Shown: positions 2,174 to 28,214 of the stretch, piece by piece
How positions within the stretch are numbered: position 1 is the stretch's first letter
Layout of the letters: every line of letters begins with the position of its first letter
Virus record (IMG/VR): IMGVR_UViG_3300030104_001481
Coordinates: 337-30,222 of that record
Strand: one strand, 5' to 3'
Source: a virus
DNA length: 29,886 nt
Notes under the pieces: model-generated
The model's database searches: none
The model's input: the letters and a program-made list of their open reading frames with translations, nothing else
Told to the model about the DNA's origin: nothing
Program-made: the position numbers and the translations under genes

Positions 2174-2974
2174 ATGGCCTATATTGGAAATATTCCTACA
2201 GACAACTTCGTTACGTTTGCTACACAGAATTTTTCTACGTCAGCAACATCTTCATACACACTCACTCATGCAGTAAGTAACGAAAATGAAATTGCGTTAT
2301 TTATAAATAACGTACGTCAACACCCTGGATCTGGTAAAGCATATACTGCTACAGGTACAGCTTTAACGTTGTCAGCAAACACAGCTTCAACAGATACAAT
2401 GTATTGTATTTTTTTAGGTCGTGCTATTCAATCTACAGTTCCGTCAACTAACAGTATTACACCAGCAATGTTAGGTGATACTACTGTTACAGCATTAACT
2501 GCAGGGACGGGAATTACTGGAGGCACAGGCACAGTTTATAGATCTGCAGTAGAAAAGTTAGGAAATATTTACCATACAAAAATTTTAATAGATTTAACAG
2601 GATTAGCTAGTTCTGGTAGTGGAGATATTATTGGAAAAGCTGCAACAGCAAATTCTCATATTGGACAGATAACTGCAGCAGTTAACGGAACAGTTTTAAG
2701 TGGCAAAATGACTTGTATGGAAGCACCTGCAGGTGGAGATCCAGACATAAATTTATGGTATGCTGATGAAGCCACAGGAACAGAAGATGCGGCAATTACA
2801 GGTTTATCAAATCAAACACAAATGTGTGATAGTGGAGATTTAGCAATTGGAACCGTTGTTGGAATACCAACACCACCAGCTGCAGATAAATATATGTATA
2901 TGGTTACAGGTGCAGCAACAGATGCTAATTACACAGCAGGTAAAATATTAATAGAGTTTTTTGGATATGTATAA
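2174..2974 (+). CDS. MAYIG-type tail fibre protein 1
   Basis: 266 residues. The N-terminal ~100 residues start MAYIGNIPTDNF and contain IALFINNVRQHPGSGKAYT, the common phage-fibre pattern 'FVNGVxQxPGxxYT', followed by a strand and an ITPAMLGD linker. This module is shared with the next gene (both begin MAYIG; the first 14 bases from ATG are identical), so it is probably the virion-attachment part. The remaining ~150 residues form a different tip: DLTGL, GDIIGKA, a GKMTCMEAPAGGDPDINLWY stretch and a terminal GKILIEFFGY. That tip family recurs in marine phage structural proteins, but I know of no assigned function. The ATG follows the upstream stop by a single base, consistent with translational coupling. 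Confidence 0.8.
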   Translation: MAYIGNIPTDNFVTFATQNFSTSATSSYTLTHAVSNENEIALFINNVRQHPGSGKAYTATGTALTLSANTASTDTMYCIFLGRAIQSTVPSTNSITPAMLGDTTVTALTAGTGITGGTGTVYRSAVEKLGNIYHTKILIDLTGLASSGSGDIIGKAATANSHIGQITAAVNGTVLSGKMTCMEAPAGGDPDINLWYADEATGTEDAAITGLSNQTQMCDSGDLAIGTVVGIPTPPAADKYMYMVTGAATDANYTAGKILIEFFGYV

Positions 2975-2997: not shown

Positions 2998-4014
2998 ATG
3001 GCCTATATTGGCAAACAACCCGTAGTAGGAAACTTTCAAATTTTAGATGCAATTAGCGTTGTAAACGGTCAAGCTGCTTACACGATGCAAGTAGCAAGTA
3101 CAAATGTAAGTCCAGAATCAGCTAACCACATGTTAGTTAGTTTAAATGGTGTATTACAAAAACCAGGATCTTCATTTACTGTGTCGGGGGCTACAATTAC
3201 GTTCGCCAGCAACTTAGTTACGAACGATGTTATTGATTTTATAATTTTATTAGGTGATGCATTAAATTTAGGTACACCTTCAGACGCAACTGTAACTACT
3301 GCAAAACTTGCAGCAGATGCAGTAACAGAAGCTAAAATAGCAGACGATGCCGTTGAAAGTGAACATTTAAATAATAATATTATCTCAGGGCAAACTGCGT
3401 TAGGTGCAACGCCAGCAGACACTGATGAGTTATTAGTTTCAGATGCTGGAACTTTAAAGAGAGTAGATTTCTCTTATTTAAAAGGTGGTGGAATGTGGGA
3501 ATTTGTTACATCAACTAATGTAACAAGTGCAACAGCTGCAGTTGAGTTTGTTGATAATTTATCAACAGACTTTATAGATTTTTGTGTAGTTATAGAAAAT
3601 GCACATCCAGCAACAGATGAAGCAAGAATGTATCTTAGAGTGTACACTGGAGGTGGAACTGGTACATTGCACGATGGAGGTGTTTATCATTATGCAGAAA
3701 TAATGAGAGACGATTCGACAGTAACCGATCATAATACAAGTGCAGATCATATGAGAGTTTCAAACCAAATAGGAAGTGCAGCCACTGAAAGTATGTGTTC
3801 TGAAGTCGTAATTTTTAATCCACACAGTACAACTTATCATAAACTTATAAAAGCACATACAGCTATACAAGGTTCTGATACTGGTCGTACTGGAATTGAT
3901 AATTGGGCTGGAAAATATGCTGCAACAACTGCTATAACAGGTTTAAGATTTTTTATGCAAAGTGGTAATATAGAAGCTGGAAGATTTTCTTTGTATGGAA
4001 GAAAACATAGTTAG
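2998..4014 (+). CDS. MAYIG-type tail fibre protein 2, with a tip like the downstream array
   Basis: 338 residues with a good ribosome site (AAAGGAG about 10 bases before ATG). Residues 1-100 are the MAYIG attachment module, with LVSLNGVLQKPGSSFTV and ITFASNLVTNDVI. Residues ~100-135 carry a heptad-like linker (TTAKLAADAVTEAKIADDAV) typical of trimeric fibre coiled regions. Residues ~165-338 are a divergent copy of the domain in the six genes that follow: shared landmarks are NAHPATD, the IFNPHSTTYHKLI block, GKYAATTAITGLRF and the end SGNIEAGRFSLYG. This gene therefore looks like the parent architecture (anchor, linker, tip), while the next six encode the tip alone. A receptor-contacting role is inferred from architecture. 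Confidence 0.82.
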   Translation: MAYIGKQPVVGNFQILDAISVVNGQAAYTMQVASTNVSPESANHMLVSLNGVLQKPGSSFTVSGATITFASNLVTNDVIDFIILLGDALNLGTPSDATVTTAKLAADAVTEAKIADDAVESEHLNNNIISGQTALGATPADTDELLVSDAGTLKRVDFSYLKGGGMWEFVTSTNVTSATAAVEFVDNLSTDFIDFCVVIENAHPATDEARMYLRVYTGGGTGTLHDGGVYHYAEIMRDDSTVTDHNTSADHMRVSNQIGSAATESMCSEVVIFNPHSTTYHKLIKAHTAIQGSDTGRTGIDNWAGKYAATTAITGLRFFMQSGNIEAGRFSLYGRKHS

Positions 4015-4023
4015 GAGTAACCC

Positions 4024-4674
4024 ATGGCTATTTCTAAAGTTAATTATAACAGCCTGAATGTAACTCCCTCAGCAAGTAAATTTTTAGCATGGGACTCAGA
4101 TGCAGATGCTTTAGCAGCTTCAGATATTGGCGGTTCTTTAAACCTAATATCCACACAAACTGCTAGTAGTAGTGCTAGTTTATCTTTTACAAGTGGCATA
4201 GATTCTACTTATAAAGAATATATTTTTAAAATTATTAATGTACATCCTTCAGCAAGTAATCAAAGATTAGCAGTAAATTTTTCTGTTGATACAGGTTCAA
4301 ATTACAATGTAACTAAAACTACTACATCTTTTAGAGCGGCACACACCGAAGCTGATGGAACTCCAGATTTTGGCTATGTTACTTCTCAAGATTTAGCACA
4401 AGGAACTGGTTTTCAAAATTTATTTATTGGAGCACCTAGTTCTGCAGGTAATGATAGTAGTGGTTCAGGCACTTTACATTTATTTGATCCATCAAACACA
4501 ACTTTTGTAAAACATTTTATTTTTAGAGGATCATCTTATCAAGAAAACGATGCAGCTTGTGATTCTTTTATAGCAGGTTATGGAAATACTACGAGTGCAA
4601 TTGATGCAGTTCAATTTAAATTTGTATCAGGTAATATAGATTCTGGTGTAATTAAAATGTATGGAGTAACATAA
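4024..4674 (+). CDS. fibre-tip-like paralogue 1
   Basis: 216 residues. The ribosome site AGGAG overlaps the stop codon of the preceding fibre gene. The N-terminus MAISKVNYNSLNVTPSAS belongs to the long-leader subgroup shared with copies 2 and 3. The core shows FTSGIDSTYKEY, NFSVDTGSNYNVTKTTT, SQDLAQGTGF, LHLFDPSNTTFVKHF, GYGNTTSAIDAVQFKF and ends SGNIDSGVIKMYGVT. There is no signal peptide, membrane segment or catalytic signature; the sequence looks all-beta. Unlike the upstream fibre it has no attachment module or coiled linker, so it must join the virion by another route or act away from it. A minor tail/tip or adhesin component is the best guess. Confidence 0.75.
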   Translation: MAISKVNYNSLNVTPSASKFLAWDSDADALAASDIGGSLNLISTQTASSSASLSFTSGIDSTYKEYIFKIINVHPSASNQRLAVNFSVDTGSNYNVTKTTTSFRAAHTEADGTPDFGYVTSQDLAQGTGFQNLFIGAPSSAGNDSSGSGTLHLFDPSNTTFVKHFIFRGSSYQENDAACDSFIAGYGNTTSAIDAVQFKFVSGNIDSGVIKMYGVT

Positions 4675-5336
4675 TGGCTTTAACAAAATTTGAATATAAT
4701 AGTTTTGATGTAACACCAGTAGCAAGTAATGGTTTTGCTTTTAACTCTACACCTAATGGTTTAACGACAGCATCTGCAGGGGCAATGACATTAATTAAAA
4801 CACAAACTGCTAGTGATGTAGCATCAGTAGAATTTAAACACGGAACATCAGATGTGGTTCTTGATGGAACTTACGATACGTATCTTTTTAAATTTATTGG
4901 TATGCATCCAGAAACAGATGCTACAGATATGACAGTAAATTTTTCAGTTGATACTGGTTCAAATTATAATGTTTCAAAAATGACAACTTTTTTTAGAACA
5001 CAACATTACGAAAATGGTACAAGTGGTGTTGTAGCGTATATAGCTGGAAATGATTTAACAGAGGGCACTGGAGAACAATATTTAAATCAGGATGGAAGTA
5101 TGGGTGCTGATAACGATCAATGTCTTGCTGGTAAGATGTATCTATTCAATCCATCATCAACCACTTTTGTAAAACATTTTATGTCTGATACAATAGAAGT
5201 AAATGCTGGTGACAGATGTAGAGAAGCTTTTGTAGCTGGATATGGAAATACTACAAGTGCCATAGATGCTGTTAGATTTAAATGTTCTAGTGGTAATATA
5301 AATGGAACAATTAAACTTTATGGGGTAACAAAATAA
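4674..5336 (+). CDS. fibre-tip-like paralogue 2
   Basis: 220 residues, starting inside the previous stop codon (TAATG). N-terminus MALTKFEYNSFDVTP matches copies 1 and 3. In the first core segment it carries the alternative form GTSDVVLDGTYDTYLFKF in place of SGIDSTYKEY, a variant shared only with copy 5. Later landmarks are NFSVDTGSNYNVSK, YLFNPSSTTFVKHFM, GYGNTTSAIDAVRFK and the end SSGNINGTIKLYGVTK. The stretch between KHF and GYGNT (DTIEVNAGDRCREAFV) is hypervariable across the array, as would be expected for exposed loops. No function beyond fibre-tip similarity can be assigned. Confidence 0.75.
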   Translation: MALTKFEYNSFDVTPVASNGFAFNSTPNGLTTASAGAMTLIKTQTASDVASVEFKHGTSDVVLDGTYDTYLFKFIGMHPETDATDMTVNFSVDTGSNYNVSKMTTFFRTQHYENGTSGVVAYIAGNDLTEGTGEQYLNQDGSMGADNDQCLAGKMYLFNPSSTTFVKHFMSDTIEVNAGDRCREAFVAGYGNTTSAIDAVRFKCSSGNINGTIKLYGVTK

Positions 5337-5977
5337 TGGCTTTAAGTAAATTACAATATAATAGTATAAATGTAACACCAACTGCTGGTGAAGGTATTAG
5401 ATTTAATTCTGGTGCTAATGGTTTTGAGACAGCAAGTGCTGGTGGTAATTTAGTTAAACTTTCTGCGTCAACTGCTAGTTCAAGTGCAACAATTTCATTT
5501 ACTTCGGGAATAGATTCTACATATAAAGAATATTTATTTTTATTTAATAGTATCCATCCTGCTACAGATAGTGCAAATGTTCAATTTCAAGGAAGCACAG
5601 ATGGAGGAAGTAATTACAATACAACTATAACTTCAACTTATTTTCAAGCTCAAGCTAATGCAAGTGAAACAGCCTTAGAGTATGATGGTGGTCAAGACTT
5701 AGCTCAAAGCACTAACTTTCAAACTATCTTAGGCAAAGAAGTTGGTAATGGAAATGATGAATCAGCAAGTGGAATGCTTCGTTTATTTGACCCAAGCAAT
5801 ACTACTTTTGTAAAACATTTTTTAGCAACTGGTAATTGTCAAGATACAGAGGCTATGTCTAGACAAGGATTTACTGGAGGATACTTTAACACAACAAGTG
5901 CAATTAATGCTGTTCAGTTTAAAATGAGTTCAGGTAACATGGACGCTGGAACTATAACAATGTATGGAGTTAAATAA
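5336..5977 (+). CDS. fibre-tip-like paralogue 3
   Basis: 213 residues, coupled to copy 2 by TAATG. N-terminus MALSKLQYNSINVTPTAG places it with copies 1 and 2. The core uses the common form FTSGIDSTYKEYLF, then GGSNYNTTI, GGQDLAQSTNFQTILG, LRLFDPSNTTFVKHF, GGYFNTTSAINAVQFK and the end SSGNMDAGTITMYGVK. The middle strand (STDGGSNYNTTITSTYF) departs from the NVTKTT consensus of copies 1, 2, 5 and 6. No enzyme motif, transmembrane helix or signal peptide is seen. Role inferred only from array context and homology to the tip of the upstream fibre. Confidence 0.75.
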   Translation: MALSKLQYNSINVTPTAGEGIRFNSGANGFETASAGGNLVKLSASTASSSATISFTSGIDSTYKEYLFLFNSIHPATDSANVQFQGSTDGGSNYNTTITSTYFQAQANASETALEYDGGQDLAQSTNFQTILGKEVGNGNDESASGMLRLFDPSNTTFVKHFLATGNCQDTEAMSRQGFTGGYFNTTSAINAVQFKMSSGNMDAGTITMYGVK

Positions 5978-6579
5978 TGGCAATAGTATCTGCAAACAAT
6001 AATGCTTTATCAGCAATCACAGCTTTACCAGCTTCAATATCAGGTGGTGGATTAAATTTAATATCTACACAGACAGCTAGTAATAGTTCAACATTAGATT
6101 TTACAAGTGGAATAGACAGCACATATAAAAAATATATTTTTAAATTTATAAATATTCATATTATAACAGGTGGTCAAAATTTTGGTTTTCAAGCAGATAC
6201 AGGAACAAATACTAGTTATGCTCAAACCATAACCAGCACATTTTTTGAAGCTGTACACGGAGAAGATGGTTCGGGCGGTGCTGTAAGTTATAAAACAGCA
6301 AAAGATCAAGTACAAGCAACGGGATTACAAAGTTTGGGACAGCCAGGTGATAATAATGATGCAAGTATATCAGGCACATTACATTTATTTGATCCTAGTA
6401 ATACTACTTTTGTAAAATTTTTTCTTGCTAGAGGTTGTCTAAATGAAGATGGTGGCGTAGCAAGTGATAATCATGTTGGAGGTTATATTAACACAGCTAC
6501 AGCGATAACTAGAATACAATTTAAAGCATCATCAGGCAACATAGATAGTGGAGTTATAAAATTATATGGCGTTAGTTAA
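5977..6579 (+). CDS. fibre-tip-like paralogue 4
   Basis: 200 residues, coupled to copy 3 by TAATG. Its N-terminus (MAIVSANNNALSAITALPAS) is about 15 residues shorter than in copies 1-3 and belongs to the NNN subgroup shared with copies 5 and 6. Core: LNLISTQTAS, FTSGIDSTYKKYIF, LHLFDPSNTTFVKFF, GGYINTATAITRIQFK and the end SGNIDSGVIKLYGVS. It is the most divergent copy in the middle strand (ADTGTNTSYAQTITSTFF). Its last codons (LYGVS, stop) contain the start codon of copy 5 in another frame, so this sequence is dual-coding. Confidence 0.75.
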   Translation: MAIVSANNNALSAITALPASISGGGLNLISTQTASNSSTLDFTSGIDSTYKKYIFKFINIHIITGGQNFGFQADTGTNTSYAQTITSTFFEAVHGEDGSGGAVSYKTAKDQVQATGLQSLGQPGDNNDASISGTLHLFDPSNTTFVKFFLARGCLNEDGGVASDNHVGGYINTATAITRIQFKASSGNIDSGVIKLYGVS

Positions 6580-7204
6580 ATACAATAATAATTCTATAAG
6601 TTCTATTACTGCAACAGCAGGTATGCCAGCAGGTGCTATGACTTTAATTAAAACTGTAACAGCATCTTCAAGTGCAAATATTAGTTTTGTTAATGGTACA
6701 TCCAGTGTGGTATTAGATAGTACATATCCAATTTATTTATTAGAATATATTAACTGCCATCCTGGACATAGCGGTCGTGTTGATTTTCAATTTAATCTTT
6801 CAGCAGATACAGGTTCAAACTATAATGTAACTAAAACTACTAGTGTCTTTCATGCTTACATTGGTGAGGGAGACCCTAGTGCTGTGTTTACTTATTATGC
6901 TGGTCAAGATCTAGCACAAGGCACAGGTTATCAAGTGCTTGGAGAAGTTGTGGGTAATGGTGCTGATGAAGGTATTACAGGATACATGTATATTTTTAAT
7001 CCAAGTTCAACAACATACGTCAAACATTTTATGTGTCACAACCAATATATAGCATTAGATGGTGGTGGTAATGCCTATAATAAATCTGACTATATTGCGG
7101 GTTACGGAAATACAACGTCAGCAGTTGATGGAATAAATTTTCAATTTGCTAGTGGTGATATAGATGCTGGAACTTTTAAACTCTACGGAATTAAGGATAG
7201 TTAA
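6566..7204 (+). CDS. fibre-tip-like paralogue 5 (apparent chimera)
   Basis: 212 residues. The ATG lies 14 bases before the end of copy 4, reading TATGGCGTTAGTTAA as M-A-L-V-K. N-terminus MALVKYNNNSISSITATAG is of the copy 4-6 type, but the core carries NGTSSVVLDSTYPIYLLEY and YIFNPSSTTYVKHFM, variants otherwise present only in copy 2. Other landmarks: LSADTGSNYNVTKTT, AGQDLAQGTGYQVLG, GYGNTTSAVDGINFQF and the end SGDIDAGTFKLYGIKDS. The mixture suggests recombination or segmental duplication within the array. Start choice is supported by MALxK(Y/xY)N being the conserved beginning of other copies. Confidence 0.75.
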   Translation: MALVKYNNNSISSITATAGMPAGAMTLIKTVTASSSANISFVNGTSSVVLDSTYPIYLLEYINCHPGHSGRVDFQFNLSADTGSNYNVTKTTSVFHAYIGEGDPSAVFTYYAGQDLAQGTGYQVLGEVVGNGADEGITGYMYIFNPSSTTYVKHFMCHNQYIALDGGGNAYNKSDYIAGYGNTTSAVDGINFQFASGDIDAGTFKLYGIKDS

Positions 7205-7803
7205 TGAGCATAGTTAAACTAAATAATAATGGTGTAAAGAACGCAACTACTTTTGGTAGCATAACTGGTTTAGGTAATTTAAAATTTATATCAAGATCAA
7301 CTGCTAGTTCATCATCAAATTTAAGTATTACATCAGGTATAGATAGCACATATAAAGAATACATATTTTTCTTTAATAATATTCACGCATCAACACAAGC
7401 ACATTTTCAAGTTAATTTTAGTGCTGATGGTGGAAGCAACTACAATGTTACGAAAACCACAACTTTTTTCTTTGCTTCTCACAACGAAGCTGGAGATTCT
7501 ACAAGTTTATCTTATCAAGATAGTCACGATATAACAGGAACAGGTGCACATTCTTTGGGTTTATCTTTTAGTAGCGATAGTGATGCTGGTGGTGCTGGAT
7601 ATATGCACTTATTTGATCCAAGCAATACAACTTTTGTAAAACATTTTATAGCAGTAACTGGAGGTTTTACTGATAGTGATTACTATAATACTAACTATAC
7701 TGCAGGATATGCTAATACCACTTCAGCAGTAAATGCTGTACAATTTTCAATGGCATCAGGAAATATAGATTCAGGAACAATCGATTTGTATGGGGTAAAT
7801 TAG
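7204..7803 (+). CDS. fibre-tip-like paralogue 6
   Basis: 199 residues, coupled to copy 5 by TAATG. N-terminus MSIVKLNNNGVKNATTFG is of the NNN subgroup. Core: SRSTASSSSNLSITSGIDSTYKEYIF, NFSADGGSNYNVTKTTTFF, MHLFDPSNTTFVKHF, AGYANTTSAVNAVQFS and the end SGNIDSGTIDLYGVN. It closes the array; a 52-base gap follows before the next gene, which has its own ribosome site, so coupling ends here. That gap also holds a weak 5-bp hairpin (7813-7817 with 7823-7827) of unclear meaning. Confidence 0.75.
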   Translation: MSIVKLNNNGVKNATTFGSITGLGNLKFISRSTASSSSNLSITSGIDSTYKEYIFFFNNIHASTQAHFQVNFSADGGSNYNVTKTTTFFFASHNEAGDSTSLSYQDSHDITGTGAHSLGLSFSSDSDAGGAGYMHLFDPSNTTFVKHFIAVTGGFTDSDYYNTNYTAGYANTTSAVNAVQFSMASGNIDSGTIDLYGVN

Positions 7804-7855: not shown

Positions 7856-8143
7856 ATGCCTAGATTCAAGATGGTTAACGGTGAGCGAATACAATTCACA
7901 GCAGCTGAAGAGACAGCAAGAGACGCTGAAGAACAAGCGTGGGCGGATGGTGCTGTAGCAAGAGCACAAGCTGATTTAAGAGCTAAAAGAAATAGACTCT
8001 TAGCAGAAACAGATTTTTATGCTTTATCTGATGTTACTATGTCGAGCGATATGACAACGTACAGACAAAATTTAAGAGATCTTCCAGCTGGTAAAGACAC
8101 TGTTGCAAAATGTACAGACGCTACTTGGCCAACTAAACCATAA
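7856..8143 (+). CDS. phage tail assembly chaperone-like protein (Phage_tail_APC type)
   Basis: 95 residues, with ribosome site AAGGAG about 9 bases upstream of ATG. The N-terminal half is an Ala/Glu-rich helix (EETARDAEEQAWADGAVARA). The second half shows RNRLLAETDFYALSDV followed by YRQNLRDLPA and a terminal WP, which is the pattern 'RdxLLxxTDwxxLpDv...YRqaLRdiP...WP' of the tail assembly chaperone family PF16778. Family members usually lie next to tail fibre or tail genes and are thought to help fibre or tail assembly. Here it lies directly after the fibre-tip array, which suggests these unusual small tips may be its clients. That last point is inference. Confidence 0.75.
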   Translation: MPRFKMVNGERIQFTAAEETARDAEEQAWADGAVARAQADLRAKRNRLLAETDFYALSDVTMSSDMTTYRQNLRDLPAGKDTVAKCTDATWPTKP

Positions 8144-10307: not shown

Positions 10308-10471
10308 TGGCTAGAATTGTACAATCTTTAACACAACCGAATAGAGAATACGATCAACAAGTACAGCAATCGTTTGTTAGAGATGTTGATAGTGTAATAC
10401 AAAAACTTAACACAACTTTTCAACAAGACGTAAAAGATGAAGTTGAAGCGTTTAACTTTTTTCTAGCATAA
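10307..10471 (+). CDS. small conserved phage protein, 54 aa
   Basis: 54 residues, bounded by 1-base TAATG overlaps on both sides (with the hub candidate upstream and the MANSF protein downstream). It starts MARIVQSLTQPNREYDQQVQ and continues as an almost uninterrupted predicted helix rich in Gln, Asp and Val (SFVRDVDSVIQKLNTTFQQD), ending FNFFLA. There are no Cys, no membrane segment and no signal peptide. A coiled-coil accessory or adaptor of the virion is plausible from position; no function is known to me. Reality is supported by perfect double coupling and by lack of any other use for the 163 bases between flanking genes. Confidence 0.75.
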   Translation: MARIVQSLTQPNREYDQQVQQSFVRDVDSVIQKLNTTFQQDVKDEVEAFNFFLA

Positions 10472-10812
10472 TGGCAAATTCTTTTGTAAATAAAAAAGCT
10501 GATTTAACCACAACAAGTGCTACAACACTATATACTGTGCCTACAGCTACAACAGGTGTGGTTAGATCCATATTGGTATCTGAAGATTCTGGTAATGCTG
10601 ATACTATAACAGTTACGATTACAGACACTAGCGATAATGTATTTAGCCTATTTAAGACCAAATCTATATCAGCTAATGCAACAACAGAACTATTAACAAA
10701 TCCTTTAGTTTTAGAGGAAAGTGAAGTATTAAAAGTAACGGCAGCAACTGCAAATAGACTACACGTAGTGCTGTCTGCTCTAGAAATTAAACCTAGAGAT
10801 ACCATAACATAG
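10471..10812 (+). CDS. small virion-type protein, copy B of a paralogous pair
   Basis: 113 residues, MANSFVNKKADLTTTSATTLYTVPTA..., homologous in pattern to the 121-residue protein at 1807-2172. The shared layout is a MAN(S/T)F start, a LYTVP-like strand, VVRSILVSE, a Thr-rich middle (TITVTITDTS), LLTNPLVLEESEVLKV and a final hydrophobic strand LHVVLSALEI. The fold is probably an all-beta sandwich. The two copies flank the fibre/hub block about 8.3 kb apart. A decoration, collar or fibre-adaptor role is conceivable. It is the last gene before an 80-base gap with two hairpins. Confidence 0.75.
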   Translation: MANSFVNKKADLTTTSATTLYTVPTATTGVVRSILVSEDSGNADTITVTITDTSDNVFSLFKTKSISANATTELLTNPLVLEESEVLKVTAATANRLHVVLSALEIKPRDTIT

Positions 10813-19660: not shown

Positions 19661-19870
19661 TTAGTCTTCTCTATCATCGTGCCAACGTTCATTTATCTTA
19701 CTAGCCATCCAATAAGCTATCGGAATACATAATATAAACGTTATCTCTGCAGCTCTTAAAACACTTACATCCCATAGTTTGTAAACAATATGATGAATTA
19801 AAATAGGAGCAAAAGCACCTACACATAGTAATATTGCCATTCTTACATAATAAGGATATCTCATATCCAT
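19661..19870 (-). CDS. small two-TM membrane protein
   Basis: 69 residues on the minus strand. The start lies within the last codons of the SNF2 helicase gene (10-base overlap: the helicase ends K-E-W-I-stop while this gene reads M-D-M-R-Y-P). Two hydrophobic segments are seen, at residues ~10-27 (VRMAILLCVGAFAPILIH) and ~38-56 (RAAEITFILCIPIAYWMA), followed by a highly charged tail (SKINERWHDDRED). Size and topology are holin-like, but its co-transcription with an early-type helicase argues equally for an early membrane protein. No family could be named. It converges with the plus-strand block across a 31-base gap in which I see no convincing terminator. Confidence 0.6.
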   Translation of the reverse strand: MDMRYPYYVRMAILLCVGAFAPILIHHIVYKLWDVSVLRAAEITFILCIPIAYWMASKINERWHDDRED

Positions 19871-21294
19871 TCCTTTAACTCTTCACCCATAACTTGTGTA
19901 GCTATATTAATTTTTTTGCGTAAAGCTTTTACTATTCTCTCATCAACTGTATCTTCTGCAATAATATCAATATAGGTCATTGGTCTTTTTTGACCAATAC
20001 GATCTATTCTAGCTTCAGACTGTTGTCTTTTCTCAAGGTCATAACCATTAGAATAATATATCATAGTGCTAGCTTCACTCAATGTAATACCATAACCACC
20101 TGTTTGTGGTGTGCCTACAATAAATCTTACAGGACTTTTAGGATCTTGAATAGACTTAATTGCTTTTTGTCTGTTTTCAACACTAGTATCACCATAGTAA
20201 GTTACAATAGAATTATCCCCATACTCTTTTGTTATATGTTTTACTATTGTTGCTATATCGTTCCTCCAATGTGCCCATATTACGACTTTACCGTGTATTT
20301 CATTAAGAACTTCCATTAACTCATCGATACGATTATTTTTAATTTCTTGTACGCTGCCATCATCAGCTTTGAAATGACCACAAGTAATTTGTTGTAAACG
20401 CATAAGTTGTGTCATTGTTGTGGCTGTTGTTGTCATCTTATCATTCATAACAGCTAAAGCCATTTGTTTCATTTGATTATAAAGTTTTTCTTGTTCACCG
20501 GATAATTGTATGACACGTTTCATAAAAGTCTTTTTAGGTAAATCTAAGCAATCGTCTTTTAATACTCTATAAGAAAAGTCTTTTAATTTATCAGATAGCT
20601 CTGGTATATTTCTATAACCAACTACAATCTGCACAGATCTACCGCCAAAATTAGCTGATCTCATTACAGCATATCTTGTTCTAAAACTATAGTATGAAGC
20701 ATGATTTAATAACCAAGGACTTAAAAATTCACATTGTGTATATAAGTCTAATGGTGATTTAGTTACAGGTGAACCTGTTAATATTCTTCTATACTTAGCT
20801 GATTCGCCTAGCTTAATAACAGACTTAGTTCTTTTAGCTTGAGGGTTTTTAATAGTCGTAGATTCGTCAATAGCCATTATAGTTTCATGGCAAGATAAAA
20901 ATTTATTAACAAAGTCTACACCTTTTTTAGTTGATAGAGCTTCTACATTTACAATCAATATGTGTAGTTCATGACTAGTCTTAAATAATTTAGATAGTTC
21001 TTTTTCTTGTTTTTTATTAACATTTGATTGCCACAATACAGACACATATTCGACATGATCTGCCATATGTGTAGGTATTTCTGTTTCGTGCCAGTTTTTA
21101 TAAACACCTTTTGGTGCCACAATTACAGCTCCGTTAATTTTACCCGCATCATATAACATTGATATGTTATCAATTAATACTTTAGATTTACCTGTACCCA
21201 TTTCCATAAAATAAGCGAAACATTCTTTATTCCAAGACATTTCCAACGCTTTTAATTGGTGTGCGTAAGGTGTTGTTTTAAACTTGTAGTTCAT
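19861..21294 (-). CDS. SNF2-family (SF2) DNA helicase/translocase
   Basis: 477 residues. Motifs in order: Y10/Q13 Q-motif-like (TPYAHQLKALEMSW), Walker A MGTGKSK (32-38), Ia VIVAPKGVYKNW (58-68), DExx box DEST (143-146), motif III LTGSP (172-176), then helicase domain 2 with VIWAHWRNDIATIV, the motif V-like GTPQTGGYGITLSEAS, and motif VI QSEARIDRIGQ (425-435). This is the SNF2/RapA-like set, and all ATPase residues look intact. Similar helicases occur in marine and lactic phages, presumably in recombination-dependent or fork-remodelling DNA synthesis. It is transcribed away from the replication cluster from a shared divergent promoter region, with a weak AAGAGA ribosome site. The only gene behind it is the two-TM protein. 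Confidence 0.88.
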   Translation of the reverse strand: MNYKFKTTPYAHQLKALEMSWNKECFAYFMEMGTGKSKVLIDNISMLYDAGKINGAVIVAPKGVYKNWHETEIPTHMADHVEYVSVLWQSNVNKKQEKELSKLFKTSHELHILIVNVEALSTKKGVDFVNKFLSCHETIMAIDESTTIKNPQAKRTKSVIKLGESAKYRRILTGSPVTKSPLDLYTQCEFLSPWLLNHASYYSFRTRYAVMRSANFGGRSVQIVVGYRNIPELSDKLKDFSYRVLKDDCLDLPKKTFMKRVIQLSGEQEKLYNQMKQMALAVMNDKMTTTATTMTQLMRLQQITCGHFKADDGSVQEIKNNRIDELMEVLNEIHGKVVIWAHWRNDIATIVKHITKEYGDNSIVTYYGDTSVENRQKAIKSIQDPKSPVRFIVGTPQTGGYGITLSEASTMIYYSNGYDLEKRQQSEARIDRIGQKRPMTYIDIIAEDTVDERIVKALRKKINIATQVMGEELKEWI

Positions 21295-21316
21295 ATTTAA
21301 ATCTCTTAACTTTCTA

Positions 21317-21344
21317 TTGACTTATATAACATATACTTTATATT
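21317..21344 (+). promoter_or_regulatory. rightward sigma70-type promoter, candidate
   Basis: TTGACT (21317-21322, one mismatch to TTGACA) and TATATT (21339-21344, one mismatch to TATAAT) with a 16-base spacer. Expected transcription start about 21350-21352, that is, at the ATG of the first gene of the replication cluster. No upstream plus-strand gene could read through, because the neighbouring genes are on the minus strand. Confidence 0.6.
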
Positions 21345-21352
21345 ACTGTCAA
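21323..21352 (-). promoter_or_regulatory. leftward sigma70-type promoter, candidate
   Basis: Read on the minus strand: a perfect TTGACA (complement of 21347-21352) and TATATA (complement of 21323-21328; four of six consensus) with an 18-base spacer, or TTATAT with 17. Expected start about 21316, giving a ~20-base leader with a weak AAGAGA ribosome site for the SNF2 helicase. The -35 overlaps the first base of the opposite gene's start codon. Confidence 0.5.
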
Positions 21353-21726
21353 TGTCAGAAAGCATAAAAGAAACTCAATCAATTGTATATGTGATACAAG
21401 AAATTGCAGGTACAAGGGAAGGTAGACCAAAAATAAATATTATAGGTGCATCACAATATGGTTCATTTAAATTTTTATTACCGGAGTTATCTCAAATAAT
21501 TTTTTCTCCTGGTCCTTTAATTATGAAATTAAGGCAAGGGTTAAAAGATTATAGATCTAATGATTATTTATTGCTTACTGGCGATCCTGCAATAATAGGT
21601 GTTGCATGTTCTATTGCGTCAGATATAACCAATGGAAAATACAATGTATTAAAGTGGGACAAACAAGAAAGAAGATACTATCCAATAACAATAAACTTAT
21701 ATGAAAGAGGAGAAATAAATGAGTGA
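21352..21726 (+). CDS. conserved marine-phage early protein of unknown function
   Basis: 124 residues, MSESIKETQSIVYVIQEIAG, with REGRPKINIIGASQYG, LLPELSQIIFSPGPLIMKLRQGL, YLLLTGDPAIIGVACSIASDITNG and KWDKQERRYYPITI. I recognise this as a protein recurrently first in the replication cluster of pelagiphages and related marine phages; no function is established to my knowledge. It is soluble-looking alpha/beta with no metal or nucleotide motif. The ATG has no ribosome site upstream and coincides with the predicted transcription start, so its mRNA is probably leaderless. Its last 8 bases overlap the next gene. Confidence 0.75.
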   Translation: MSESIKETQSIVYVIQEIAGTREGRPKINIIGASQYGSFKFLLPELSQIIFSPGPLIMKLRQGLKDYRSNDYLLLTGDPAIIGVACSIASDITNGKYNVLKWDKQERRYYPITINLYERGEINE

Positions 21727-22282
21727 TAACTTACAAAAGATGTTCATTGAGGATGCCCCTCAAGATGTGGACAATCTAAAAGGTGTAGAAAATTTATCTA
21801 CTCTTGTCTTACAGTTACAGAAACTAGAAGACGAGATTAAAGATAAAGAAAGTCAATTAAAATCTACAAAAGAAAAAGCAGATAAACTTTCACAAGTTGC
21901 TATCCCTGAAATAATGGAAGCTTTAAAAATGAAAACTATGAAGTTAGCTGATGGATCTGCAATTGAAATTAAAGAGATATATAGCGCAACTATTCCTGTT
22001 GATAAAAAGGAAGGCGCTTATAACTGGCTTCGAGAAAACGGCTTAGGTGATCTTATTAAAAATGAGATTACAGTTTCCTTTGGTCGTGGCGAAGACAACA
22101 AGGCGAGCGAATACGCAAACCTTGCAAAAGGGAATGGGTTCGAACCAACTCAAAAGTTGAAAGTCGAACCTATGACCCTTAAAGCATTGTTTAGAGAGCG
22201 TTCTGAAAATAAAGAAGAACTGCCATCTGAACATTTTAATCTGTTTAAGGGAAACAAAACAAAAATAACAAGGAGTAAATAA
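21719..22282 (+). CDS. conserved phage replication-cluster protein, coiled coil plus beta domain
   Basis: 187 residues, with an AGAGGAG ribosome site inside the previous gene. Residues ~30-62 are a coiled coil (LQLQKLEDEIKDKESQLKST...EKADKLSQ). A conserved-looking domain follows: MKTMKLADGSAIEIKEIYSA, AYNWLRENGLGDLIKNEITVSFGRGED, KVEPMTLKALFRER. Proteins with the 'WLRxNGxxDLIKNxxTVxFGRGED' signature are frequent in podoviruses of several hosts, beside ssDNA-binding or primase genes, with unknown role. Association with DNA replication is inferred from position alone. One base separates its stop from the next ATG. Confidence 0.7.
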   Translation: MSDNLQKMFIEDAPQDVDNLKGVENLSTLVLQLQKLEDEIKDKESQLKSTKEKADKLSQVAIPEIMEALKMKTMKLADGSAIEIKEIYSATIPVDKKEGAYNWLRENGLGDLIKNEITVSFGRGEDNKASEYANLAKGNGFEPTQKLKVEPMTLKALFRERSENKEELPSEHFNLFKGNKTKITRSK

Positions 22283-22283
22283 C

Positions 22284-23048
22284 ATGAGCGAAGAAGCAAG
22301 AAACGTGACATCAAAACAAGGTGGTGCTTTAGCTAAGATTGACTTTGTTGCAGACTCAGGGATGGGTTTGGAAAACATTGACAAGAGTGATCTAGCATTA
22401 CCTTTTCTGAAACTACTGCAGAGTGGTTCAGATGAAACTAAGAAAAAACATGCTAAGTATGTGGAAGGAGCAGAAGCTGGTATGTTTTATAATACAGTTA
22501 CAAAAAAACTGTATAACGGTGAGAAGGGAATAGAAGTTATTCCCGTGTTCTACAAAATGACTTACCCTGAATGGGCACCTTTTGAAAGAAAAGAAGGTAG
22601 ACCAATCAGCAATGATAGGGGTCCAAGCGTTATGGCAGAAACAACTCAAAACGATAGAAACAAAGATGTGTTGAAGAATGGTAACGAGATTATCAAAACA
22701 GCAAATCATTTTGTTATTATCAATGGGGATAGACCTGAGAAAGCTTTAATGACAATGAAGTCAACTCAGTTAAAAGTTAGTAGAGGATGGAATTCATTGA
22801 TGGAAGATCAATTTGAAATAGATCCAAAAACTAATAAGTCTGTACCAGCACCAGTCTTTTCAAGAGTTTATAAATTAAACTCTGTAGAAAACTCAGGGAG
22901 CTTTACTTGGCATGGTTATAATATATCTATGTTAAGAAAAGTAGATAATGCTGGACTATATCAAATGGCCCGTGATTTTCATAACTCTTTAAAAAACTCG
23001 CAGCAGAAAACTGCCACAGTTTCAGAGGAAGATAAATCAAATTACTAA
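22284..23048 (+). CDS. putative ssDNA-binding or recombination-associated phage protein
   Basis: 254 residues with a good ribosome site (AAGGAG, 7 bases before ATG). Visible segments: DLALPFLKLLQSGSDETKKK, YVEGAEAGMFYNTVTKKLYN, GIEVIPVFYKMTYPEWAPFE, MTMKSTQLKVSRGWNSLM, PVFSRVYKLNSVENSGSFTW. The pattern 'P(F)LKLLQ...GAEAGMFYNTVT...G..VIPV...y.EW.P' is a known phage family encoded before primase/helicase genes and sometimes annotated as a single-strand DNA-binding protein. Aromatic residues in the beta-rich middle and the acidic C-terminus (VSEEDKSNY) fit an SSB-like protein, but the assignment is tentative. It is followed by a structured 64-base gap. Confidence 0.55.
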   Translation: MSEEARNVTSKQGGALAKIDFVADSGMGLENIDKSDLALPFLKLLQSGSDETKKKHAKYVEGAEAGMFYNTVTKKLYNGEKGIEVIPVFYKMTYPEWAPFERKEGRPISNDRGPSVMAETTQNDRNKDVLKNGNEIIKTANHFVIINGDRPEKALMTMKSTQLKVSRGWNSLMEDQFEIDPKTNKSVPAPVFSRVYKLNSVENSGSFTWHGYNISMLRKVDNAGLYQMARDFHNSLKNSQQKTATVSEEDKSNY

Positions 23049-23050
23049 TT

Positions 23051-23099
23051 TCTCGTGAGAGGAATGTGGGCGGTCATAGGGAGACTGAAGCCGCCCATA
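23051..23099 (+). other. GC-rich hairpin/possible pseudoknot before the primase gene
   Basis: TGGGCGG (23067-23073) pairs with CCGCCCA (23091-23097), extendable through wobble and A-T pairs to about nine pairs, with a 16-17-base loop. It is one of the most GC-rich runs in an AT-rich window. Just 5' lies the small inverted repeat TCTCGTGAGA (23051-23060), whose TCTC could instead pair with GAGA in the loop (23081-23084) and form a pseudoknot. The run after the stem (TAAAAAGGG) is A-rich rather than U-rich and supplies the primase ribosome site, so this is not a typical terminator. It could be an RNA processing or translation-control element or a replication signal. Confidence 0.6.
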
Positions 23100-23112
23100 A
23101 AAAGGGATCATT

Positions 23113-24681
23113 ATGGTTGAAGAGTTTATAAAATTATTTACTGGTTATAGTGGAGATTTTGGTATTGCCGATATGTCCAGTGCAAAGCTGGACTCTGAAA
23201 GAAACAAATTAAAACCAGATTATGAATGGTCAGGCAGACCAGTTACAGAAGAAGACTACAAAAATCATATAGCAGGAAAAATATCAATAGGTATACAGCC
23301 TTGTACTATTGATGGCACGGCAAGGTTTGGATGTATTGATATTGATCCAAAGAACTACAAAGAATTTAAGATAGAGAACTATCTAGCTTTATTCGAACAA
23401 TATAAATTACCTTTAATACCTATGCTTTCAAAAAGTGGTGGATTGCATTGTTACATATTTATGGAGGAGTTTGTTCCTACATCAGATTTAATAGAAGCAT
23501 TAAAATCATTTCTATTACCACTTGGATTAAAACCTACTACAGAAATTTTTCCAAAACAGAAAGAGCTAAAAGAAGATGATAAGGGAAATATTAAACCAGG
23601 TAACTTTATAAACCTACCTTATTACAATAACGGACAAACACATCGATATGCTGTAGATAAGAATAATTCTAAACTATCTTTGGATCAATTTATAAAACTA
23701 GCAAACGAATTAAAAACAACAAGAGATAAATTAAATAGCTTAGTAGAAGACACACATAAAAATATATTATTAGGAACTGACTCAGAGTTCTCTGATGGTC
23801 CACCTTGTTTAGCTTTATGTTCTAAAACAAAACTAGATGATGGTAGAGATAGATTTATGTACAACTACATGGTCTTTGCAAAAAAGAAATATAAGGACAA
23901 GTGGCAAGATTTTGTATCAAAAGCAAACTATGCTTACCTAGAATATCCTTGGGATAAATCTAAATTAGATCAAAAATTAAAAGCGTGGGACAAAGAAACA
24001 GCAGGACATACTTGTTATGAAGAACCTATCAAGGACAAGTGTATGCGTAGTCTTTGTTATTCAAAACCTTTTGGTGTCAAGTCTGATAGTATAAATGTTT
24101 TTCCTGATATAACTGATTTTCAAATTATACGATACGAACAACCAGAGTATAGATTTAATGTGGTTATGCCTAATGATGATAAGATAGAGGTTATCATACC
24201 TAATCTTAAGTTAATGACAACACAGAAAGAAGTGTTAAATTTAATATGGGAGCAGACAGGTATATACTTTGAACCCATTAAGCAGAAAGATTGGAGAGCA
24301 AAGTTAAATGAGTGGAGAAAAAATTGTCAGAATATTACACCACCAGAGGGTACAAGTACAGATGATATTTTAGCTAATGAATTATTTCAATACTGTGTTA
24401 ATGGTCCACAAGCTAAAGAAAGAATACAAATTAGATTAGGTTCTTGTCTTACTGAAGAAGGGTTTCACTTTTTTAAATATCAATCGTTTCTTACACACCT
24501 TGGTAATGATTGGAAAATATCAAAAGAAAAGATAGGTCAGAAACTAAAAGAAAGATTTAAAGTAGAATTTAATTACTCACTCAAAGTGGATGGTAAGGTT
24601 GAGAAAGTTTGTAAACTAAAACAATTACACATTGATAAAATAGAATACAAACCAGTAGAAAGAAAAGGATCTAATTACTAA
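23113..24681 (+). CDS. archaeo-eukaryotic-type (AEP) DNA primase
   Basis: 522 residues. AEP catalytic signatures: GCIDIDP with D76 and D78 (metal-binding DxD), SKSGGLHCYIF with S108/G110/H112 (the S-x-H nucleotide motif), and EIFPKQ (144-149) leading to GNFINLPYY (163-171), as in primase domains of TOTE-type and related phage/plasmid AEPs. Around residues 300-322, TCYEEPIKDKCMRSLCYSKPFG gives three spaced Cys resembling the zinc-binding element that follows such primase domains. The C-terminal ~90 residues (GPQAKERIQIRLGSCLTEEGFHFFKYQSFL) are helical and may be a helicase- or DNA-contact region. It would synthesise primers for the PolA. No helicase domain is fused; that function is in the next gene, joined by TAATG. 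Confidence 0.82.
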   Translation: MVEEFIKLFTGYSGDFGIADMSSAKLDSERNKLKPDYEWSGRPVTEEDYKNHIAGKISIGIQPCTIDGTARFGCIDIDPKNYKEFKIENYLALFEQYKLPLIPMLSKSGGLHCYIFMEEFVPTSDLIEALKSFLLPLGLKPTTEIFPKQKELKEDDKGNIKPGNFINLPYYNNGQTHRYAVDKNNSKLSLDQFIKLANELKTTRDKLNSLVEDTHKNILLGTDSEFSDGPPCLALCSKTKLDDGRDRFMYNYMVFAKKKYKDKWQDFVSKANYAYLEYPWDKSKLDQKLKAWDKETAGHTCYEEPIKDKCMRSLCYSKPFGVKSDSINVFPDITDFQIIRYEQPEYRFNVVMPNDDKIEVIIPNLKLMTTQKEVLNLIWEQTGIYFEPIKQKDWRAKLNEWRKNCQNITPPEGTSTDDILANELFQYCVNGPQAKERIQIRLGSCLTEEGFHFFKYQSFLTHLGNDWKISKEKIGQKLKERFKVEFNYSLKVDGKVEKVCKLKQLHIDKIEYKPVERKGSNY

Positions 24682-26120
24682 TGAGATATAAAGTTATAGG
24701 ACCACCAGGTACGGGTAAGACTAAAACACTATTAGATAAAGTAAAACTTTATTTAGATACAGGCATACCATTAGATCGAATAGGATACTTCGCATTTACA
24801 AGAAAAGCATCCGAAGAGGCAAGAGATAGGTTTTTAGAACAAAGACCAAACTTTGATAAAAAAGATATAAAATATTTTAGAACACTACATTCATTAGCAT
24901 TTAATAACCTAGGTTTAAAAGAAGAAAATGTTATGAACGAACTTCACTATAAAACTATAGGTGAAACTTGTGGTATACAAATTCAATATGCGTCTTATGA
25001 AAAAGATACATGGAACGGTATCTTCTCATCAAGCAGTGAGTATTTAAATCTAATAAATTTAGCTAGAGTAAGACAAATAAAAACATTAGAACAGTTAGAC
25101 CTTAACGAACACCTTGGTAAAGTAGAAAGAAATAAACTAGAGGCAATCGATACTGAAATACAAAACTATAAAAAAACTTATGGTCTTATTGATTTTACTG
25201 ACATGTTAGAAAAGTTTTTAGAGAAGGGAAGTATACAAAATAAACTAGATGTAATCTTTGTCGATGAAGCACAAGATTTATCTAAAATACAATGGTCTAT
25301 GATTGAAAAAATAGAAAGAGATAATGGTTGTGACATATGGATAGCAGGAGATGATGACCAAGCTATATTTGGTTGGGCTGGAGCTGATGTAGATTCTTTT
25401 ATAGATTGGGATGCAACAGAAATGCCACTAAAACAATCAGAAAGAGTTCCAAGTCAAATACAACAAAAAGCTCTATCTATAATATCTAGAGTTGTAGATA
25501 ATAGATTAGAAAAAGATTATTTACCAAAAAAAGAAACAGGCGAGATATTCGAGGTATATAAATTTATTGACATAGATATGTCCAAAGGATCTTGGTTAGT
25601 TTTAGCGAGAACAAATCCATTACTCAAACCCATACCAAAAATATTAAAACAAAAAGGTTTATTTTTTAAAACTGTAGATGGAAACAGTATAGCAAAAAAT
25701 TTATACGAGGATATAGAACATTGGAACAAAATAAGAAAAGGAGAAAGTATACCAGAGATACAAGAGCAACGAGTATTAGAAAAAATAAAAGGTAAGCCTA
25801 ATTACAGTTTAGAATGGTATGATGCATTTGATAATGTTGCATCTTCTAAAATAGATTATTTAAGAACCATGATATCAAATGGTGAAAAAATAAATAAAGA
25901 GCCAAGAATAACAGTATCAACTATTCATGGAGCTAAAGGAGGAGAGGCAGCTAATGTTATTTTGTTTTTAAATCAAACTACAAATACTATGAAGGCTTCT
26001 AAAAAATCTGTGTACAAACAAGATGAAGAGTATCGTGTCTGGTACGTAGGTGTAACAAGAACGATACAAAATTTATATCTAGTAAAATGTAACAACAAAC
26101 GAAAGGAGTTTATTATATGA
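24681..26120 (+). CDS. SF1 UvrD/Rep-like DNA helicase
   Basis: 479 residues, coupled to the primase by TAATG. Motifs: Walker A GPPGTGKTKT (7-16), Ia YFAFTRKASEEARDRF (37-52), a FRTLHSLAF motif, DEAQD (195-199), motif III GDDDQAIFGWAGAD (223-236), QSERVPSQI (motif IV region), ITVSTIHGAKGGEA (motif V, ~410-423) and YVGVTRTIQNLYLV (motif VI, near 455). These are the SF1A UvrD/Rep/PcrA hallmarks in a compact form, without the large 1B/2B insertions of bacterial UvrD (about 700 residues). With primase immediately upstream and polymerase downstream it is probably the replicative or fork-restart helicase, taking the place of a DnaB/gp4-type ring helicase not seen here. Confidence 0.88.
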   Translation: MRYKVIGPPGTGKTKTLLDKVKLYLDTGIPLDRIGYFAFTRKASEEARDRFLEQRPNFDKKDIKYFRTLHSLAFNNLGLKEENVMNELHYKTIGETCGIQIQYASYEKDTWNGIFSSSSEYLNLINLARVRQIKTLEQLDLNEHLGKVERNKLEAIDTEIQNYKKTYGLIDFTDMLEKFLEKGSIQNKLDVIFVDEAQDLSKIQWSMIEKIERDNGCDIWIAGDDDQAIFGWAGADVDSFIDWDATEMPLKQSERVPSQIQQKALSIISRVVDNRLEKDYLPKKETGEIFEVYKFIDIDMSKGSWLVLARTNPLLKPIPKILKQKGLFFKTVDGNSIAKNLYEDIEHWNKIRKGESIPEIQEQRVLEKIKGKPNYSLEWYDAFDNVASSKIDYLRTMISNGEKINKEPRITVSTIHGAKGGEAANVILFLNQTTNTMKASKKSVYKQDEEYRVWYVGVTRTIQNLYLVKCNNKRKEFII

Positions 26121-26380
26121 GTGCGTACAAAAAACAAATTGGAGGATCACATTATAAATCGATGGTCATGCAGCCTAGTGAGTTTATAAATAAGAACAGG
26201 TTGCAATTTGCGGAAGGGTCGGCTATAAAATATATATGCAGACACTCTGCCAAAGGAAAGGAAGAAGATATCAAGAAGGCAATACATTATTTGGAAATGA
26301 TTTTAGAACGAGATTATTCAGACAAAAAAGAATCTTGGACTGAAGGTTATAAAGAATGGAAAAAACAAAATGATATTTAA
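26117..26380 (+). CDS. DUF3310 family protein
   Basis: 87 residues. The ATG overlaps the helicase stop (ATGA), with ribosome site AAGGAG upstream. The sequence shows GGSHYKSMVMQPSEFINKN, FAEGSAIKYICRH and KEEDIKKAIHYLEMIL, the full DUF3310 pattern (GGxHYK...QPxEfI..N.L.F..G.aIKYi.R...K...D..KA.hYL). This domain is common in phages; some members, including T7 gp1.7, are linked to nucleotide (dTMP/dGMP) phosphorylation. Placement between helicase and polymerase would fit nucleotide supply or a replication accessory role. The last 11 bases overlap the polymerase gene. Confidence 0.85.
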   Translation: MSAYKKQIGGSHYKSMVMQPSEFINKNRLQFAEGSAIKYICRHSAKGKEEDIKKAIHYLEMILERDYSDKKESWTEGYKEWKKQNDI

Positions 26381-28214
26381 AGCACAAACAGAATGGGTAA
26401 AACCTACAGAGTTTCCAGACCTACGTCATGCAGATGAGATAGCAATTGACTTAGAAACATATGATCCTGATTTAAAAAAATTAGGAACAGGTTCTGTTGT
26501 AGGTAGAGGTAAGGTCGTGGGTATAGCTGTAGCTACAGATGGATATTCTGGATATTTCCCATTTGATCACGAGGGTGGTGGTAATCTTAATAAAGATTTA
26601 GTTATGAAATGGTTTAAAGATATCTGTGAGTCAACAGCAGATAAAATATTTCACAACGCAATGTATGATGTTTGTTGGATTAGATCTATGGGTTTTAAAA
26701 TAAATGGTAGGATTTATGACACAATGATTGCAGCATCATTAGTAAATGAGAATAGATATAGATACGATCTTAATAGTTTGGGTTGGGACTTTGTTGGCCA
26801 AGGTAAAAATGAAACAGAATTAAACAACGCAGCAAAAGAATGGGGTGTAGATCCCAAGGCAGATATGTGGAAATTACCCGCATTATATGTAGGTAATTAC
26901 GCAGAAAGGGATGCAGAGCTTACCTATGCGTTGTGGAGAGTTATGCAAAAAGAAATAAGCAACCAAGATCTAGGGTCTATATTTGATTTAGAAACAGATT
27001 TGTTTCCGTGTTTAGTTGATATGAGATTTAAAGGGGTGCGTGTCGATACCGAATCCGCTCATAAATTGAAACAACAGTTAAGTGAACAAGAAAAACAATT
27101 ATTACAAGAAGTAACAAAAGAGACAGGAGAAGAATGTCAAATATGGGCAGCACGAAGCATTGCCAAAGTTTTTGACAAATTAAAATTACCTTACGAAAGA
27201 ACTGAGAAAACACAGGCACCATCATTTACTAAAAACTTTTTGTCTAATCATGAACATCCTTTAGTTAAGAAGATAGCAAAAGCTAGAGAAATAAACAAGG
27301 CACATACAACATTTATAGACACAATTATAAGATACGAACATAAAGGTAGAATACACGCTGATATTAACCAGATAAGATCTGACCAAGGTGGTACAGTTAC
27401 TGGTAGATTTTCATATTCTAATCCTAACCTACAACAAATTCCTGCTCGTAATAAAGACTTAGGTCCACTGATTCGATCCCTATTTATACCAGAATCAGGT
27501 TGCGAGTGGGGATGCTTTGACTACTCACAGCAAGAACCAAGACTAGTAGTTCATTATGCATCCTTAGACCAAGACACAAGCGTGTTTGGTGTTAAAGAAG
27601 CATACGATGATGGAGATGCAGACTTCCATACTATCGTTGCAAAGATGGCAGATATACCAAGAACTGCAGCAAAAACAATTAATCTTGGATTATTTTATGG
27701 TATGGGTAAGGCAAAACTACAAGCAGAGCTAGGTGTTAGTAAAGATAAAGCTGAAGAATTATTTAATATCTATCATAGTAGAGTTCCGTTTGTTAAATCA
27801 TTAATGAACTCTGTATCTAATAGAGCACAACAACGAGGACAGATAAGAACTTTACTTGGAAGATTATGTAGGTTTCATTTATGGGAGCCAAATACTTTTG
27901 GTATGCACAAAGCATTACCATTTGAACAAGCTGTCCAAGAACATGGACCAGGCATCAAGCGTGCTTATACTTACAAAGCATTAAATAAATTAATACAAGG
28001 TTCAGCTGCTGACATGACAAAAAAATCTATGTTGGATTTATACAAAGAAGGCATTGTAGCGCACATACAAATACATGATGAATTAGATGTTTCTGTAGAG
28101 TCTCCAGAGCAAGCTAAAAAAATTGTTGAGATTATGGAGAATGCTGTTAAATTAGAAATCCCAAACAAAGTAGACTACGAATCTGGTAAAAATTGGGGAA
28201 CAATAAATGACTAA
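26370..28214 (+). CDS. polA: family A DNA polymerase with 3'-5' exonuclease domain
   Basis: 614 residues. Exonuclease: ExoI IAIDLET with D27/E29, ExoII FHNAMYDVCWI (near 100), ExoIII YAERDAELTYAL (near 180), so proofreading looks intact. Polymerase: motif A FDYSQQEPR (catalytic D384), motif B RTAAKTINLGLFYGMG with R431, K435 and Y443, motif C IHDELDVS with H569, D570 and E571. TVTGRFSYSNPNLQQIP is the usual template-contact region. There is no 5'-3' exonuclease domain, as in T7-like phage polymerases. At the position equivalent to E. coli Phe762 (T7 Tyr526) the residue is Leu439. The T7 thioredoxin-binding loop is not evident. It is the replicative polymerase of the cluster and overlaps the DUF3310 gene by 11 bases. 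Confidence 0.95.
   Translation: MIFKAQTEWVKPTEFPDLRHADEIAIDLETYDPDLKKLGTGSVVGRGKVVGIAVATDGYSGYFPFDHEGGGNLNKDLVMKWFKDICESTADKIFHNAMYDVCWIRSMGFKINGRIYDTMIAASLVNENRYRYDLNSLGWDFVGQGKNETELNNAAKEWGVDPKADMWKLPALYVGNYAERDAELTYALWRVMQKEISNQDLGSIFDLETDLFPCLVDMRFKGVRVDTESAHKLKQQLSEQEKQLLQEVTKETGEECQIWAARSIAKVFDKLKLPYERTEKTQAPSFTKNFLSNHEHPLVKKIAKAREINKAHTTFIDTIIRYEHKGRIHADINQIRSDQGGTVTGRFSYSNPNLQQIPARNKDLGPLIRSLFIPESGCEWGCFDYSQQEPRLVVHYASLDQDTSVFGVKEAYDDGDADFHTIVAKMADIPRTAAKTINLGLFYGMGKAKLQAELGVSKDKAEELFNIYHSRVPFVKSLMNSVSNRAQQRGQIRTLLGRLCRFHLWEPNTFGMHKALPFEQAVQEHGPGIKRAYTYKALNKLIQGSAADMTKKSMLDLYKEGIVAHIQIHDELDVSVESPEQAKKIVEIMENAVKLEIPNKVDYESGKNWGTIND

Follow-up and report, generated by a model that had tools for sequence, protein, structure and literature searches.

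We propose that the free-standing tip-like genes of this ocean phage are organised by threes, each gene triplet probably encoding the A, B and C chains of one heterotrimeric fibre tip, as judged from sequence comparisons. The window, that is, the whole stretch of 29,886 nucleotides of viral DNA that was analysed, carries an array of six such genes, and this array is two triplets rather than an open-ended set of variants. Because the N-termini of the two triplets differ, the phage should carry two distinct heterotrimers.

The array consists of six consecutive ORFs, all on the plus strand, at 4024-7803. Their products (216, 220, 213, 200, 212 and 199 aa) can be aligned over their full length, with 48-54% identity to the first copy, and all six match phrog_14820 over 183-210 residues with E values of 1e-63 to 1e-76 (to 7.7e-76). 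The initial annotation had described six consecutive homologous genes of about 200 residues here, with the same domain at the C-terminus of the MAYIG fibre just upstream. Both statements were confirmed, the former by the ORFs, the full-length alignment and the phrog_14820 matches, and the latter by a phrog_14820 match at about residues 163-334 of the fibre (E 3e-13). It had also described the copies as lacking the attachment module and the linker of that fibre; the MAYIG module is indeed absent from all six, but c1-c3 keep a short linker-like N-terminus ('FLAWDSDADALAASDIGG' versus 'ELLVSDAGTLKRVDFSYLKGG' in the fibre). The junctions within the array are 1-nt overlaps (TAATG), including the start of c2 on the stop of c1, and a 14-nt overlap at c4/c5. 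The latter (6566-6579) is dual-coding, since the conserved YGVS-stop end of the type A gene is at the same time the MALVK start of the type B gene. Among the relatives, overlaps of -1 or -14 nt predominate between triplet genes. Two IMG/VR contigs from two other datasets (L012 and L013) match the array at 100% protein identity with the same gene spacing; as these independent datasets carry an identical array, it is not an assembly artefact, and the check suggested in this respect left it standing.

Table 1. Fibre genes, array genes and chaperone gene of the window.
Feature	Coordinates	Strand	Basis
First MAYIG-type fibre gene (266 aa), with the anchor module and a different C-terminal part	2174..2974	+	ORF; alignment to the N-terminus of the second MAYIG-type fibre
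Second MAYIG-type tail fibre gene (338 aa), with anchor, linker and the array-type C-terminal tip domain	2998..4014	+	phrog_18673 tail fibre 9e-52 (1-160); phrog_14820 3e-13 (163-334)
c1, triplet 1 (kind I), putative type A subunit	4024..4674	+	phrog_14820 1.3e-72; identical array L012 typed A-B-C
c2, triplet 1 (kind I), putative type B subunit; TSxVVLDxTY insertion	4674..5336	+	phrog_14820; alignment; typing
c3, triplet 1 (kind I), putative type C subunit	5336..5977	+	phrog_14820; typing; AF2 pLDDT 91.3, all-beta
c4, triplet 2 (kind II), putative type A subunit	5977..6579	+	phrog_14820; typing
c5, triplet 2 (kind II), putative type B subunit; TSxVVLDSTY insertion as in c2	6566..7204	+	phrog_14820; alignment; typing
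c6, triplet 2 (kind II), putative type C subunit	7204..7803	+	phrog_14820; typing
Tail-fibre assembly chaperone gene, 95 aa, directly 3' of the array	7856..8143	+	PF16778 Phage_tail_APC 1.4e-11; phrog_4912 tail fiber assembly 4.9e-17

Elsewhere in the window, a long fibre with TLTNKTL-type repeats lies at 84-1778, and two related proteins of 113-121 aa, both matching phrog_1276, flank the fibre region (1807-2172 and 10471-10812). A replication block at 19861-28214 contains a minus-strand SNF2-type helicase, an archaeo-eukaryotic primase (PF22548), a UvrD helicase and a family A DNA polymerase.

We then asked how many free-standing copies stand together in related phages. Five queries against IMG/VR yielded 359 loci, and runs of copies entered the count if they lay 700 nt or more from the ends of the fetched sequence. 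Distinct runs of three genes numbered 134 and runs of six 16; there were also one run of seven, two runs of two genes and three single copies. In the run of seven (L015), a frameshift divides one gene, so that the true count is six; L295 contributed a one and a two that together make up a single triplet broken by a frameshift. After such merging there were 135 runs of three, 17 of six, one of two and two of one, so that 152 of the 155 complete runs hold three or six genes, two frameshift-broken genes being counted whole; many of these runs are related, and the triplets form about 46 effective groups at 62% identity. Some loci carry 3+6 copies (for example L073, L074, L082 and L083). The remaining run of two (L238, 1489-2735) consists of an A gene and, behind it, a B/C hybrid, whose start resembles type B (MALVKYND) and whose end resembles type C (GDICLYGIA); this run reflects either a deletion in the phage or a repeat collapsed in the assembly. 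The single copies, in the isolate Lederberg (L011) and in L353, are distant ones. As the length of 152 of the 155 runs is a multiple of three, the array is built from units of three genes and not of one. The initial annotation was right about the number of genes and overlooked the three-gene unit, and the comparison across related contigs that it had called for revealed no fixed single copy. A different free-standing tip-like family, with proteins of 158-183 aa ending in LMEI, also occurs in tandem, as four consecutive similar genes in Lederberg (EXVC029P, 31562-33622) and four genes in L353 (2155-4250). As these genes stand in fours, threes are not universal among tandem tip arrays.

The members of a triplet are not interchangeable. 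In a tree, the nearest neighbour from another locus (less than 90% identical) occupied the same triplet position for 257 of 277 copies. The triplets are of two kinds, kind I resembling c1-c3, with the longer N-terminus, and kind II resembling c4-c6, and in 250 of 251 triplets the N-termini of the three members are of one kind. Residues diagnostic of type are common to both kinds: column 40 is L/L/F in A/B/C, column 43 T/T/K and columns 63-64 KE/PI or PV/KE, with further diagnostic columns at 68 (K/K/T or I), 70 (I/I/N or K) and 208 (K/K/C or T). Indeed, a core-domain classifier trained on kind II typed kind I with 93% accuracy, and the reverse gave 88.5%, chance being 33%. These comparisons indicate that the three types are ancient and predate the kinds. 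When the 251 triplets were typed with relatives left out, 215 read A-B-C, 12 C-B-A and 5 B-A-C; one of each type was present in 92% of them, compared with 22% for random types, and 19 were not typed as one of each. Both triplets of the window, represented by L012 and by the window itself, read A-B-C, and in the nine-copy phages (L073, L082, L083 and L038) the middle triplet is ordered C-B-A. Our strongest reason for considering that the three proteins work as a set is that composition is kept while gene order changes. In the model of c3, the diagnostic residues lie mostly at alternate positions of strands 39-46, 65-75, 144-151 and 202-212, as residues of an interface would be expected to do.

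Covariation between partners points in the same direction. With true partners, the ten best couplings of the core domain averaged 2.5-2.9, as against 0.8-1.5 when partners were swapped for near relatives; overall, the covariation of true partners was two to three times that of swapped ones. The excess was seen in both kinds, also after relabelling of the C-B-A sets; the analysis had been redone with relabelled types because several strong couplings came from C-B-A triplets with swapped labels. The mean coupling in type-determining columns at first looked significant, but it was equally high with swapped partners and was withdrawn. The placement of the top couplings on interface strands was not clearly better than in shuffles, and a directional test of covariation (handedness) gave no overall signal. 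To some extent the strongest signal comes from the linker (columns 31-39), where it may reflect sub-lineages, and same-column covariation could also arise by gene conversion among the copies. We thus read the covariation as favouring co-adaptation or joint inheritance, and not as proof of contact. A search for ORFs with two fused copies, which would bear on a single-chain packing model, found none.

The AF2 model of c3, built from an alignment that left out four rows from annotated records, is a confident all-beta fold (pLDDT 91.3), and in the model of the fibre at 2998-4014 (pLDDT 76.8) the tip is well predicted. In BFVD, the array domain recurs as the C-terminal domain of several annotated tail-fibre proteins, and the fibre-tip-like nature proposed at the outset is supported by this family, which ends many tail-fibre proteins, together with the gene context. 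No Foldseek match to the PDB passed E 1e-3 for the free copy c3, and the fused fibre gave a similarly weak result. The free copy and the fibre showed a weak beta-sandwich likeness to the galectin-8 N-terminal lectin domain (PDB 3vkn and 3ap4; best E 8.5e-3 and 1.7e-3, TM about 0.25-0.48), with no sequence relation, and this similarity of models is no evidence of sugar binding. A sequence search of the PDB found no relative of the array proteins, and Pfam gave no above-cut-off match for any copy, only one weak sub-threshold match. The family phrog_14820 is of unknown function, and its description does not include the triplet organisation, the types or the oligomeric state.

The fused MAYIG-type fibres, with their phrog_18673 N-terminus, share the C-terminal domain and the genome region with the triplets. 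Unlike the triplet proteins, they have their own anchor and linker, are presumably homotrimeric and have a tip that diverges much faster. Between pairs of phages, the anchor of the fused fibre is 79-87% identical and its tip 32%, as compared with 55-58% for free copies at the same position. In 157 of 159 pairs the greater divergence was that of the fused tip, so that the fast-changing part is the fused fibre and not the triplet. Within the triplet proteins, hypervariable loops are found at about residues 163-180 (c3 numbering).

One could also imagine that A, B and C each form a homotrimer of their own whose place or task is fixed and distinct, either stacked on one fibre or at three sites, and that all are needed. 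Ordinary phage fibres are homotrimers, and phage fibres are almost by default taken as such. Three obligate homotrimers would account for the three conserved types and their joint inheritance and would produce a genomic pattern that is in large part the same, and the couplings pick out no contact face better than shuffles do. However, the similar N-termini within a kind, coherent in 250 of 251 triplets, point to a common attachment and not to three separate ones, gene order varies while the composition of the triplet is kept, and the covariation in the core domain is partner-specific. We consider such separate homotrimers rather unlikely.

The initial annotation had put forward two possibilities, a mixed set of receptor-binding tips maintained as alternatives for diversity and a heteromeric tip complex made from one coupled transcript. 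The latter fits the evidence best, given the threes, the typing, the coherence of kinds and the coupled genes. The former would agree with the hypervariable loops and with the weak galectin-like fold, but it is very unlikely and finds no support in a copy number fixed to threes without gain or loss of one gene at a time, in types that are ancient, or in same-position copies that are conserved (55-58%) relative to the fused tip (32%). For a diversity-generating retroelement, no reverse transcriptase (PF00078) match was found in the 38-kb record, which may be incomplete. That the copies are free of the MAYIG module would suit capsid decoration or a secreted set of glycan-binding proteins rather than a tail tip; nevertheless, the array sits between tail fibre genes and a tail-fibre chaperone, and the same domain ends tail fibres, so that this role appears very unlikely. 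Recent neutral tandem duplication or an assembly artefact has next to no likelihood. Repeats are prone to collapse, as the B/C hybrid of L238 and the split genes of L015 and L295 illustrate, but the copies are only about half identical, the types predate the kinds, independent contigs share an identical array and isolate genomes also carry triplets; conservation across phages led us to rule this reading out.

In the annotated phage collection, the family occurs only in four Pelagibacter phages, with three copies each, annotated as hypothetical proteins, in HTVC010P, HTVC019P and HTVC034P, and one distant copy in Lederberg. All isolates with triplets infect Pelagibacter. The sole match among GTDB genomes is a Pelagibacteraceae single-cell genome, where a phage fibre region (L359, contig CACJAU010000015.1) holds one A-B-C triplet and links the module to SAR11 cells. 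We infer that the host of the window phage is SAR11. Its DNA polymerase shares 63% identity with the HTVC027P enzyme, and its backbone differs from those of the triplet-bearing isolates; the annotated collection shows no family member in isolates of the HTVC027P type. The triplet would thus appear to move between unrelated SAR11-phage backbones. A hypervariable structural region is reported for HTVC010P-type phages, in a paper whose passages on the subject, as far as found, do not mention triplets (PMC10504331). In the open-access papers searched, no virion proteomics of array-family proteins was found.

A precedent exists in the virophage DSLV2, which has three consecutive homologous gp37-like tail-tip genes of about 200 aa that cluster by position (Chu et al. 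2025, PMC12724248). Their 1:1:1 heterotrimer was demonstrated by co-purification and native PAGE (PMC12724248). The likeness lies in the three consecutive same-strand homologous genes of similar length (152 of 155 runs of three or six, 3+3 in the window) and in proteins that cluster by gene position and not by virus (257 of 277; cross-kind typing of 93% and 88.5%). For the SAR11-phage triplets, a 1:1:1 complex is a prediction to which the covariation lends support. The DSLV2 tail has the T4 gp37 collar/needle domain PF07484 and the SAR11-phage triplets an unrelated all-beta domain without a Pfam domain; PF07484 gave no above-cut-off match in the copies, and gp37 was absent among the best Foldseek PDB matches listed. 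DSLV2 is a virophage and the present triplets belong to SAR11 phages; moreover, these triplets are repeated (3, 6 or 3+6), with kind-specific N-termini and a changeable gene order. Because the genomic features are shared and the collar domain is not, the triplets would work like DSLV2 without being a member of that system. In the open-access literature searched by the corresponding phrases, no other report of heterotrimeric tails or fibres was found. The term undescribed system, used at the outset, therefore went too far, since a heterotrimeric tail tip encoded by three genes, with another domain, was reported in 2025 (PMC12724248). What is new is the different domain, the occurrence in SAR11 phages, the repeated triplets and the changeable gene order.

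The heterotrimer that we propose would be made as follows. The overlapping genes would couple translation and yield equal amounts of A, B and C, and these chains may pack alongside one another by way of complementary residues in the strands at about 39-46, 65-71 and 202-212 (c3 numbering). The kind-specific N-termini would fix the trimer to the virion, possibly aided by the adjacent tail-fibre chaperone, and the hypervariable loops would face outwards and bind a ligand at the cell surface. The window phage would carry two such heterotrimers besides its presumably homotrimeric fused fibres. More broadly, and with about as much to be said against it as for it, we suggest that A:B:C tips are obligate in SAR11 phages, that the triplets move between unrelated backbones and duplicate whole, and that one to three heterotrimers per virion recognise a conserved SAR11 feature while the fused fibres carry the fast-changing tip. 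If the heterotrimer reading is true, a copy number in multiples of three is a genome signature for heterotrimeric tips, and proteins annotated as hypothetical in HTVC010P and its relatives can be named and their complex tested. Asymmetric tips, which could expose three different binding surfaces at a time, would then be made by phages that rank among the most abundant on Earth.
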